Shown one piece after another: positions 11,745-31,456 of a stretch of DNA of 64,000 bases. Source of the DNA: an uncultured Alphaproteobacteria bacterium (GTDB lineage Bacteria; Pseudomonadota; Alphaproteobacteria; Rhodobacterales; Rhodobacteraceae). The notes under the pieces were generated by a model, which saw nothing but the letters and a program-made list of their open reading frames with translations, was not told the origin of the DNA and ran no database searches. Positions within the stretch are counted from its first letter, which is position 1; every line of letters begins with the position of its first letter. The position numbers and the translations under genes were made by a program. The stretch covers positions 367,213-431,212 of the forward strand of contig CACGWW010000001.1 of the NCBI GenBank assembly GCA_902576905.1. The letters are read 5' to 3'.

Positions 11745-12519
11745 AAAGTATAGGAACGTGATCAGAAGGTCTTTCCCAGTCTCTAGCTTCTGAAAAAATT
11801 TGGACTTTGCTTAATTTAGATTTTAAATCTTGGCTTACCCATATATGATCCAAGCGTCTTCCGCGATTTGAAACCTTCCAGTCTCGTGCTCTATATGACC
11901 ACCAACTATATAATTTGCCAGACGGTTTCATTTCTCTGAATGTGTCAATCCAGTCTCCACTTTTTTTAATCTCTGATAAAAGGTCTGTTTCTATTTTTGT
12001 ATGCGAAACAACGTTTAAAAGGGCTTTATGGCTCCAAACGTCATCTGGTAAAGGGGCTATATTGAAGTCTCCAACGAGTATAGTTTTCTTTATCTTGCCT
12101 TTAAAAAATTTATTCTTAATTTCGGAAAGGAAATTGATTTTATGCTCAAATTTAGGATTTAATTTCGTATCGGGTAAATCCCCGCCTGCCGGAATATAAA
12201 GATTGTGGACCTTTACACCGTCTTCAAGCTCAATTCCAATGTGTCGAGCGTCGTCTCTACCACAAAAATTGAATTTCTCAATTTTCACTATTTTAAGTTT
12301 TGATAAAATTAAGACACCATTATACGACTTTTCCCCCCTAAAAGCTGCGAATTTATAACCCAGCTTTTCAAAGTTTTCCAAGGGAAGCTTTTCGTCAATA
12401 CATTTTGTTTCTTGGAGACACATAATGTCTGGGCAAGCTAGCTTTAAAAATCTCAACACTAGTTCTTCTCTAAGTCTGACAGAGTTTATATTCCATGATG
12501 CTACTGCAAGTGACTTCAA
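11734..12519 (-). CDS. xthA: Exodeoxyribonuclease III
   Basis: ASWNINSVR, CLQETKC, VGDFNIAP, RRLDHIWVS, SDHVPI motifs of the EEP nuclease family. Confidence 0.95.
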   Translation of the reverse strand: MKSLAVASWNINSVRLREELVLRFLKLACPDIMCLQETKCIDEKLPLENFEKLGYKFAAFRGEKSYNGVLILSKLKIVKIEKFNFCGRDDARHIGIELEDGVKVHNLYIPAGGDLPDTKLNPKFEHKINFLSEIKNKFFKGKIKKTILVGDFNIAPLPDDVWSHKALLNVVSHTKIETDLLSEIKKSGDWIDTFREMKPSGKLYSWWSYRARDWKVSNRGRRLDHIWVSQDLKSKLSKVQIFSEARDWERPSDHVPILSIF

Positions 12520-13190
12520 TTTTTCTCGCCCGTAAGTTCGTGATTCAAATAAAATCTGCCCCCTTTATTAATTATAAAATCGTTAAGAATTAGGCCTTCT
12601 TTAATTTTTTTCCTTAATCTGTAAAGGTGTGTTTCGAAAGTATGTGTTTCAATACTGGGATTTAACATCCAAACTTTTGACATTACTTCCTCTTTCGTTA
12701 TTCCTCTATCCTCAGAGTTCAGCAAAGATACAAATATATCACTTTCTTTTTCAGTTAACAAAACGGCCTGTTTATCTTTATAAATTACTTTTCTATCAGA
12801 AATTATGAAGCTTATATATCCAAGAACTTTGTTGTTCTCTCTTTTACTTTTCATTCTTTCAAATATTGGTTGCAATACTTCGACCAGCTCAACAATCCTG
12901 AATGGCCGTTTTAGGTAAATATTACCCTTTGGCAATAATTCGAACCTCTTCTGAGTAATTAATATTTTTTCTATCTCCTTAAGTTTATTTTTTTGCATTT
13001 TTGTATTTGATAAAAACTCTTTGAATTTAGTGGGATTATAATCACTTACTAAAACATCGAGATCTTCGATGTTTTCCAAAGTAAAATCTTTCACGACAAC
13101 AGCTCTCCCATTTCTGAATTTGTAACTTTCCAATAAAGTCTTTAAGCTCTCTCCAAATAACATATTTGACGTTATAATTGCTAAGTTCAC
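12516..13190 (-). CDS. OmpR-type winged-helix response regulator with divergent receiver domain
   Basis: C-terminal wHTH (LLTEKESDIFVSLLNSEDRGITKEEVMSKVW..ETHTFETHLYRLRKKI); N-terminal receiver-like fold lacks the acidic pair. Confidence 0.8.
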   Translation of the reverse strand: MNLAIITSNMLFGESLKTLLESYKFRNGRAVVVKDFTLENIEDLDVLVSDYNPTKFKEFLSNTKMQKNKLKEIEKILITQKRFELLPKGNIYLKRPFRIVELVEVLQPIFERMKSKRENNKVLGYISFIISDRKVIYKDKQAVLLTEKESDIFVSLLNSEDRGITKEEVMSKVWMLNPSIETHTFETHLYRLRKKIKEGLILNDFIINKGGRFYLNHELTGEKN

Positions 13191-13298
13191 GTTTTTTACC
13201 TTAAGTGAATTAAAATTATAAGATATACATCTATTAAAAATTTCCTTAGCATCAACTTAACATAAAAATTGAAATTCTAAACCAATTGACACAATAAA

Positions 13299-14393
13299 AT
13301 GTTTTTAAGCTCATCTGAAATATCTTCGAGGTTGGTCTCAGATTTACGATTAGGACTGCCAATCATCTTACATGATGCAAACACATATTTTTTAACAGCA
13401 GCGATAGAAACATTGTATTCAGAGAAATTAGATAAAATAATGGAGATTGCGAAAAACGAAAATTTTGAGATAGCTATAACTAATAGAAGAGCAAAGGTAT
13501 TAAAAGTTAGAATATATAATGAATCAGTTACTAGAATTTCAATAAGAGAAAAAATAAGCATACAACTCCTTCAAGCAATCGCAGATCCTTCAAAGGATCT
13601 AGATTATCCACTCAAGGGCCCATTCCAAAGCGAGAGAAATGGTAAATTCAACGTTGCTAGTGAATCACTATCACTTTGTAAGAAAGCAAGACTTTTACCA
13701 GCATCAATACTTGTAAATATACCAAAAAGCATACGGGACGAGTTAATATCTTCCCAAATATCTGAGACTGATATAGGTGATTTAAAGATTAAACGTGAGG
13801 AGACCAAGTTTTTGCCGAATTTGAGCTCGGCCCAATTGCCCATCAGTGGACAACAAAATATAAGCCTATCTGTTTTCAGAGAAGTAACAGATATAACTGA
13901 ACATTATGCGATAGTATTTGGCAATCCAAAAATTAATCAGCCTGCTTTAACACGCGTACATTCTGCTTGTTTTACAGGTGATTTACTTGGTTCAGAAAAA
14001 TGTGATTGTGGGGAGCAATTTAGTGTCTCAATGTCAAAAATGAGAAATGAGGGAAATGGGATTTTGTTATATTTAAACCAGGAAGGTAGAGGAATTGGCT
14101 TAGCTAACAAAATGAGAGCATATCATCTCCAAAATATTGGTTTTGATACAGTCGATGCTAACCATAGACTTGGTTTTGAAGATGACGAAAGAGACCTAGA
14201 GATTGCTGCAAAGATTTTAAAATCTTTAGGTGTAAGCGACATAAAGCTAATGACTAATAACCCAAAAAAAATCGAACTTTTAACTGATAATGGGATCGCC
14301 GTCAAAGAAAGAGTACCTTTGATAGTAAGTATGAATCCCAATAATGAAAGTTACTTGAAAACAAAAGCTAAAAAAAGTGGGCACCTTTTCTAA
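13299..14393 (+). CDS. ribA: GTP cyclohydrolase II with divergent N-terminal extension
   Basis: RVHSACFTGDLLGSEKCDCGEQ and YLNQEGRGIGLANKMRAYHLQ motifs; about 190 aa N-terminal region lacking DHBP synthase motifs. Confidence 0.9.
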   Translation: MFLSSSEISSRLVSDLRLGLPIILHDANTYFLTAAIETLYSEKLDKIMEIAKNENFEIAITNRRAKVLKVRIYNESVTRISIREKISIQLLQAIADPSKDLDYPLKGPFQSERNGKFNVASESLSLCKKARLLPASILVNIPKSIRDELISSQISETDIGDLKIKREETKFLPNLSSAQLPISGQQNISLSVFREVTDITEHYAIVFGNPKINQPALTRVHSACFTGDLLGSEKCDCGEQFSVSMSKMRNEGNGILLYLNQEGRGIGLANKMRAYHLQNIGFDTVDANHRLGFEDDERDLEIAAKILKSLGVSDIKLMTNNPKKIELLTDNGIAVKERVPLIVSMNPNNESYLKTKAKKSGHLF

Positions 14394-29575: not shown

Positions 29576-30088
29576 TCAGTCTAAAGAAAGACCCACTTTT
29601 ATTTGGATTTTAGAGCCTATCTCATAATAACGCCCTGTTAAGCTTGAACCTGTAAATCCATTCCAACTATATATCACTCTGTAACTTTCTACGGCACTTC
29701 GCTGACTGACCAGCTGGACAATTTCACATCTTTGTTCTGTATTGTAACCAACGACTTTTGTTGTTGTTTTCTTTTGTTGTTCGGCTGCTACGACTCCTCC
29801 CATTACAGCTCCGACCCCAGCAGCATTGTTGTCGTTTGTTAAGGCTTTACCGATAAGAGCTCCAACCACCATTCCTCCTAACACATCAGCGCCTGATGCG
29901 CCGTTACCACTGACAACCTTTCCGTAGACTGGTACCTTTACATTTCTGCAACGTGTCTCAGGTGTGTAAATATTCGTACTTGAATAAACTGGCTCAACTG
30001 ATTGCACAGTACCTGTCACATAATAAGTCTCGGCAAATAAATTTGAGAAATAAAATAGAGCTAGGATTGCTGTGATTAATTTTAACAT
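29576..30088 (-). CDS. Glycine-zipper (SlyB/2TM-like) envelope protein
   Basis: Signal peptide MLKLITAILALFYFSNLFA; GADVLGGMVVGALIGKALTNDNNAAGVGAVMGGVVAAE glycine zipper; start at 30088 preceded by a GGAG RBS. Confidence 0.8.
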   Translation of the reverse strand: MLKLITAILALFYFSNLFAETYYVTGTVQSVEPVYSSTNIYTPETRCRNVKVPVYGKVVSGNGASGADVLGGMVVGALIGKALTNDNNAAGVGAVMGGVVAAEQQKKTTTKVVGYNTEQRCEIVQLVSQRSAVESYRVIYSWNGFTGSSLTGRYYEIGSKIQIKVGLSLD

Positions 30089-30138: not shown

Positions 30139-30173
30139 AAAAAAAAAAGCCGAACAAAAATTTGCTCGGCTTT
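30139..30173 (-). terminator. Rho-independent terminator
   Basis: Minus strand AAAGCCGAGCAAA-UU-UUUGUUCGGCUUUUUUUUUU. Confidence 0.85.
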
Positions 30174-30240
30174 AGTCAACAGGGAGGTATGAACATGAAA
30201 AAATTTCATGCTCTACCCAAATTGCAATTCGCGTACCAAT
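30139..30240 (-). ncRNA. Candidate small RNA or structured 3'UTR: stem-loop, exposed ACCUCCCU motif, then Rho-independent terminator
   Basis: Terminator stem 30146-30173 with U tail; upstream stem 30191-30213; CCUCCC between them; each stem has a G-U pair on the minus strand that would be an A-C mismatch on the plus strand. 5' end is not determined from sequence. Confidence 0.5.
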
Positions 30241-30265
30241 TTAAATTAACAATTGAAAATATAAG

Positions 30266-31456
30266 TCAACTGCCCTTAATTACTTTATCGCTAAGCAATC
30301 TATCAACTTCCAATTCTGTAAAGCCTAATCCTGAAAGAACTGACTTAGTATGCTGACCAAGTGTTGGAGCTGACAAATTGTCATCCTTATTGGTTACAGA
30401 AAAGCTAGCCGCTAACCTAGACTGCCGTATCTTTCCCGCGATAGGGTGTTCAGAAATTTTTATTATATCATTTGCAACTACTTGCTCATTCTTTATCATT
30501 TTTTTTCTTGTCAATACGGGTGCGCAAGGAACATCTTTAGCCGTAAGTAATTTCAACCATTCATCAGATGTTTTTTTCTTAAGCTCATATTGTATCAATT
30601 CTAGTCTTTCATTTATATTCTGATGCCTTAATTCCGCCGTCAAAAACCTCGGGTCACTTAACCACTCTTTCTTATTAAATGCATCGCAAATATTAAACCA
30701 TTCTTTATCGGACTGAACTGCAACAGATATAAAGCCCTCTTTAGTTTCATATATTAGATCAATAAAACTCTGTGCGGTCTCCTTTTCAAGTTCGTCTCCA
30801 ACAAAGGTATGCCCTCCCATATCGGAACCCCACAAAAAAGAAATTACAGTATCTAGCATTGATATTTTGACTTCCTGACCCTCACCTGTTTTTGCCTTAT
30901 GAAACAGTGCCGCTGTTATCGCTTGAGCGGTAGCGAACCCAGTAAGCTTATCAGGAAGTATCGTTCGCATAAGCCTGGGTCTCTCTTCATCTGATCCTGC
31001 TTGTACAGTGGTTAGACCGGATAGAGCTTGAATAAGAGGATCGTAAACTGGTTTATTCTTATAAGGGCCAGTAAAACCAAAGCCACTTATGGAAACATAT
31101 ATAATGTTAGGACTTATCGCGCGAACATCACTATATCCGAAACCTAACCTATCCATTACCCCTGGTCTGAAGTTTTGTACTAAAACGTCCGCCGTTCCAA
31201 TTAGCTTTTTAAGGATATTTTTTCCTTCCTTCACTTTTAGATCAATACACACAGATTTCTTATTTCTATTATTGTTAAGGTAAGCGGCCGAAATTCCAGA
31301 TCTCTGGGTGCTGACAATCCTGGTATAATCTCCAACTGAAGTATTTTCAATTTTTATGATTTCAGCATCCTGGTCTCCTAGTATCATAGTTGCACTTGGA
31401 CCTGAAATCATCGATGTTAAATCGATTATTCTTATCCCTTTTAAAGCACCAGCCAT
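30266..31456 (-). CDS. CaiB/BaiF family (class III) CoA-transferase
   Basis: GIRIIDLTSMISGPSATMILGDQDAEIIKIE; NRNKKSVCIDLK; VQNFRPGVMDRLGFGY. Confidence 0.95.
   Translation of the reverse strand: MAGALKGIRIIDLTSMISGPSATMILGDQDAEIIKIENTSVGDYTRIVSTQRSGISAAYLNNNRNKKSVCIDLKVKEGKNILKKLIGTADVLVQNFRPGVMDRLGFGYSDVRAISPNIIYVSISGFGFTGPYKNKPVYDPLIQALSGLTTVQAGSDEERPRLMRTILPDKLTGFATAQAITAALFHKAKTGEGQEVKISMLDTVISFLWGSDMGGHTFVGDELEKETAQSFIDLIYETKEGFISVAVQSDKEWFNICDAFNKKEWLSDPRFLTAELRHQNINERLELIQYELKKKTSDEWLKLLTAKDVPCAPVLTRKKMIKNEQVVANDIIKISEHPIAGKIRQSRLAASFSVTNKDDNLSAPTLGQHTKSVLSGLGFTELEVDRLLSDKVIKGS

Follow-up and report, generated by a model that had tools for sequence, protein, structure and literature searches.

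The small RNAs (sRNAs) SorY (RF02651), of Rhodobacter (Cereibacter) sphaeroides, and SorX (RF02784) are under RpoHI/RpoHII control, and their known targets are transporter mRNAs (PMC8307010); SorX is 3′UTR-derived according to the title of its paper, which is cited in the same source. The alpha-R8 RNAs (MmgR/suhB, RF00519; SisA to SisD in Caulobacter) combine a weak hairpin, a single-stranded anti-Shine-Dalgarno core with CCUCCCU, and a Rho-independent terminator, and point and compensatory mutations established that SisA represses through its anti-Shine-Dalgarno 10-mer (PMC12559287). They are usually linked to an N-formylglutamate amidohydrolase gene, but this linkage is not obligatory, as SisB, SisC, and SisD are located elsewhere (PMC12559287). 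The Fla1 flagellar genes of R. sphaeroides are run by RpoN2 with FleQ and FleT (PMC7277832). Here we describe a locus in a Rhodobacteraceae genome that is very probably a SorY/SorX-type sRNA gene. The kind of RNA is known; its predicted control is new.

The locus lies on the minus strand of the window, the whole 64-kb stretch of DNA that was analysed. The predicted sRNA (30139–30212, ~74 nt; minus-strand sequence from 30212 to 30139, AGCAUGAAAUUUUUUCAUGUUCAUACCUCCCUGUUGACUAAAGCCGAGCAAAUUUUUGUUCGGCUUUUUUUUUU) consists of a short hairpin, a single-stranded ACCUCCCUGUU, and an intrinsic terminator of 12–13 bp followed by a U run. The 5′ hairpin predicted by folding, GCAUGAAA-UUU-UUUCAUGU (30193–30211, minus strand), was seen in 16 of 16 aligned congeners, with a one-base difference in loop length in L045 and L050. 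The anti-Shine-Dalgarno core (30178–30188, minus strand) is mostly unpaired (probability 0.77–1.0), and the terminator, AAAGCCGAGCAAA..UUUGUUCGGCUUU plus U run (30139–30173, minus strand), is the stronger, at 12 pairs, of two terminator-like sites that a scan found in the region, against 0.5 ± 0.6 in shuffled sequences. For the minus-strand RNA the folding energy is −22.7 kcal/mol, compared with −8.8 ± 2.5 for dinucleotide shuffles (z ~ −5.5; none of 200 shuffles was as good), whereas the plus strand of the segment folds more weakly (−18.8). An earlier note on this DNA had proposed an sRNA read from the minus strand and bearing an anti-Shine-Dalgarno stretch, which is well supported, and had placed both stems, ACCUCCCU (30188–30181), and the terminator where we find them. 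The hairpin it drew at 30213–30191 needs correcting at its outermost pair, at 30213, which does not form in 11 of 16 relatives and precedes the predicted start at 30212. Its strand argument from G-U pairs also holds: among 16 relatives, six have A-U in place of the terminator G-U and two have G-U in place of a neighbouring A-U, with minus-strand pairing intact throughout. CCTCCCTGTT occurs at two further places in the genome; as extra copies of the sRNA these were rejected, one being a terminator-like stem and the other an apparent coding stretch.

No Rfam family matched in the window at its gathering threshold. Below the cut-offs, matches on the correct strand were recovered to SorY (36.8 bits, E 8.4e-6; gathering score 111 bits), SorX (24.7; 46.6 bits), and suhB/mmgR (22.6; 41 bits), so that the Rfam search suggested by the earlier note returned the described kind, if only at sub-threshold scores. 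The SorY cut-off of 111 bits was reached by no genome in a 101-genome sample, where the best family members scored 45–79 bits. The earlier note recognised no named family and compared the RNA with AbcR and CcsR; it belongs instead with SorY/SorX and alpha-R8. The ACCUCCCUGUUG core, the preceding hairpin, and the GCCG-stem terminator of SorY/SorX are all present. With SorY it shares the CAUACCUCCCUGUUG core, a hairpin ahead of it, a GCCGAGC terminator, and the layout of a stand-alone transcript, although SorY has GUUGGACU where the window's sRNA has GUUGACU, one G fewer. The ACCUCCCUGUUG core and the terminator are also shared with SorX, which unlike this sRNA, with its own predicted promoter, derives from a 3′UTR. 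The overall plan, CCUCCCU included, is likewise that of alpha-R8, whose 10-mer, UUUCCUCCCU, agrees with AUACCUCCCU of the window's sRNA at 8 of 10 letters, but the latter lies between a CaiB/BaiF-type CoA-transferase gene and a gene for a glycine-rich protein rather than beside an amidohydrolase gene. Because its core is of the same kind as that of SisA and equally exposed, the same action is suggested by analogy.

Conservation within the genus and the family argues for a functional RNA. The sequence ACCTCCCTGTTGACTAAAGCCG is kept in 19 of 22 incomplete congeneric genomes, including the window's own, and the three congeners in which the sRNA was not found have genomes 71–75% complete. The core ACCUCCCUGUUG and the ACU that follows are invariant in the genus and in a set of 28 sequences that also covers other Rhodobacteraceae genera, where a single base (U in one, otherwise G) separates them; that base is missing in the window's genus. 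Across the family the terminator covaries: both sides have changed in 26 cells, where shuffles give 9.4 (0 of 500 shuffles), and 84% of cells are paired versus at most 49% when partners are slid. The compensatory changes that the earlier note named as a check in relatives are found in the terminator, while the 5′ hairpin hardly covaries, being near-invariant among the 16 aligned congeners. Gene order (PhyH, CaiB, sRNA, glycine-rich protein, LldD) is conserved among congeners. The upstream neighbour, outside the RNA, is the CaiB gene (30266–31456, minus strand; PF02515), and in two divergent congeners (L045/L108 and L050/L107) CaiB is only 72% identical and the rest of the spacer has diverged, with the sRNA nearly unchanged. 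Its position directly behind the CaiB gene, in the same orientation, would suit a mere terminator of the CaiB transcript with no regulatory RNA, a reading we find very doubtful, since a terminator needs neither an invariant unpaired core and family-wide homology nor an invariant promoter.

A small coding gene could also explain conservation, and the plus strand offers a good-looking start site, GGGAGGTATGAACATG, with an ORF behind GGGAGG. The earlier note had raised such a plus-strand ORF as a finding that would count against the sRNA; its length varies from 13 to 55 codons with changing ends, it is antisense to CaiB, and it is frameshifted in L045 and L050. A sense ORF within the RNA spans 10–42 codons and is also frameshifted, and coding in either form is hardly credible.

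Downstream, the same minus strand encodes a small predicted exported glycine-rich protein (29576–30088), with no Pfam match and a weak NCBIfam match to PRK11280, whose gene adjoins the sRNA in every congener. Given this constant adjacency, the common strand, and the ~50 nt between them, the element might be a 5′ leader or attenuator whose terminator gates sigma-54 transcription into the gene. We consider this improbable: the terminator is strong and conserved, no pairing that competes with it appears in minimum-energy folds, and RNA core and terminator occur in other genera at unrelated loci. SorY-type loci of other genera have gene neighbours different from those of the window's sRNA.

Sigma-54 promoters have a −24/−12 form with GG and GC ten bases apart, and their start position is predicted by a spacing rule from the −12 GC. 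Upstream of the sRNA, TGGTACG-CGAA-TTGCA (30223–30238, minus strand) has this form, and the C of its −12 GC sits 12 nt before an A at 30212 (minus strand). This A is the predicted transcription start, where the Rfam SorY match and the conserved hairpin also begin. All 19 congeneric loci carry TGGTAYG-N3-ATTGCA unchanged, even the two whose neighbouring proteins have diverged to ~72% identity, and the distance from the start of the element to the core is fixed at 50–51 nt. The exact consensus, TGGYAYGNNNNTTGCW, has only 2 matches in the 1.69-Mb genome, against 0 for the reversed-pattern control. We also scored the 64-kb window with a matrix derived solely from eight sigma-54 sites at flagellar genes in congeners, whose leave-one-out scores are 12.6–17.7; of all positions, the sRNA promoter came out best (14.9 bits; runner-up 13.5). 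On these sequence grounds the promoter is, in all likelihood, of the sigma-54 type. A TTGACT (30269–30264) that the earlier note took for a −35 element lies in the CaiB stop-codon region, is missing from two divergent relatives, and lacks an accompanying −10; we therefore discarded a sigma-70 promoter there. The same note left the RNA as intergenic or 3′UTR-derived; since a conserved sigma-54 promoter fits here, a separate transcript is likelier than a 3′UTR product.

The likeness of this promoter to flagellar ones extends to the genomic context. In the window's own genome rpoN, detected in 15 of 22 genomes of the genus, lies near motA/motB-like and transglycosylase (SLT) genes; in congener G003 its cluster also holds fliD, fliS, fliF, fliK, fliP, and others in a Fla1-like arrangement, with sigma-54 sites before several flagellar genes and another before flhA, located elsewhere. 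In congeners, two divergent sigma-54 activators adjoin fliF, both with GAFTGA and one without a helix-turn-helix match, a combination with rpoN that resembles the Fla1 cluster of R. sphaeroides. These activators were not found in the window's 77%-complete genome, probably because they would lie beyond the end of the contig, judging from their distance in G003. The features of a Fla1-like regulon are in place, namely a promoter resembling flagellar sigma-54 promoters, rpoN in the lineage, and FleQ/FleT-like activators in congeners, and the sRNA quite probably belongs to the flagellar regulon. Nitrogen control is a common role of sigma-54 promoters, and in one congener the ribosome site of glnB is complementary to the sRNA; the same anti-Shine-Dalgarno sRNA could answer an activator for nitrogen or another signal instead of flagellar assembly. 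This is unlikely: recurrent intergenic sigma-54 sites other than that of the sRNA lie mostly ahead of flagellar genes, and the flagellar-cluster activators are the only ones among those examined to keep GAFTGA, a motif absent from both NtrC and NtrX in two congeners. A parallel to flagellar control of the sRNA, as predicted here, is CJnc230/FlmE of Campylobacter jejuni (PMC11187230), an RpoN-dependent sRNA in the flagellar programme; it is processed from flgE mRNA in a different bacterial class and targets Cj1387c and flgM, and no homology is claimed.

A further recurrent intergenic sigma-54 site, TGGCATGTRTTTTGCA (L097:4414–4490 in G007; also L099 in G003), carries a conserved hairpin, CCCCTCATAC..GTATGAGGGG, at its predicted start ~290 nt before an alkylhydroperoxidase-like gene, and may represent another structured RNA or leader under sigma-54.

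We consider it likely that the locus encodes a SorY/SorX-type trans-acting sRNA that acts under flagellar sigma-54 and blocks Shine-Dalgarno sites. Sigma-54 RNA polymerase, activated by flagellar FleQ/FleT-like enhancer-binding proteins, would start near 30212 and run to the terminator; the resulting RNA of 74 nt, probably aided by Hfq, would cover GGGAGG-type Shine-Dalgarno sequences through ACCUCCCUGUU, and the target mRNA set would be translated less while the flagellar programme is on. In this scheme we infer transcription, Hfq use, repression, and the choice of mRNAs; hfq itself was found in 11 of 15 genomes of the genus and not in the window's incomplete genome. A duplex scan of the window's genes gave no convincing target. 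The pattern ACAGGGAG-ATG occurred ~55 times in eight genomes versus 33 in the reversed control, and AGGGAGG-ATG ~473 times in 22 genomes versus 312, a modest excess. Matching ribosome sites were found before fabI (recurrent), flhA (two congeners), a sugar ABC permease gene, glnB, and rpoB, with gene names assigned by reading translations; these are candidates, and our confidence in any given target is low. Transporter genes, which the earlier note proposed, may be among the targets. For example, flhA of G003 (L101:4132–4275) has, besides its sigma-54 promoter, UUGACAGGGAG as its ribosome site, with the potential to pair with the sRNA over 11 positions; the site is similar in G011 and absent in G001 and G006.

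The promoter is what sets the window's lineage apart from the rest of the family. At 24 of 29 loci in other Rhodobacteraceae genera, an RpoH-type promoter (CTTG-N17-18-CYTAAAT-like) ends 33–47 nt before the core, as in SorY with its RpoHI/RpoHII-type promoter, and the sigma-54 element was found at none of the 29; the window's sRNA has the sigma-54 element instead, in 19 of 19 congeners. When 84,980 genomes were searched for the sigma-54 element combined with the core, there were 28 matches, comprising 19 in the window's lineage, one plausible sRNA in Meridianimarinicoccus roseus, and eight without such a terminator. In M. roseus (L210:2407–2469), a SorX-like RNA lies beside an OmpR-family gene with a perfect sigma-54 consensus (TGGCACG-N4-TTGCA) upstream, which could be an independent case or chance. 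The window also has an OmpR-family gene beside ribA (12516–14393), like the pair adjoining the SorX-like RNA in M. roseus, with no CCTCCCTGTT RNA there; its lineage may have lost a SorX-like copy. Four other family genomes matched a similar sigma-54 pattern, G414 with a weak partial RpoN match only and G259 and G271 with none. No sigma-54-controlled SorY or alpha-R8 RNA was found in the open-licence literature.

On balance, we lean towards a promoter swap that, in this uncultured marine lineage, moved a family-wide stress sRNA under flagellar sigma-54, such that building the flagellum would repress the translation of a group of GGGAGG-led mRNAs. The sRNA body is conserved and its control has apparently changed, from heat and oxidative stress to sigma-54. 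If true, replacement of a promoter would here have rewired an sRNA regulon in a clean manner, and a free-standing anti-Shine-Dalgarno sRNA would be tied to flagellar gene control, and so to swimming, in Alphaproteobacteria.
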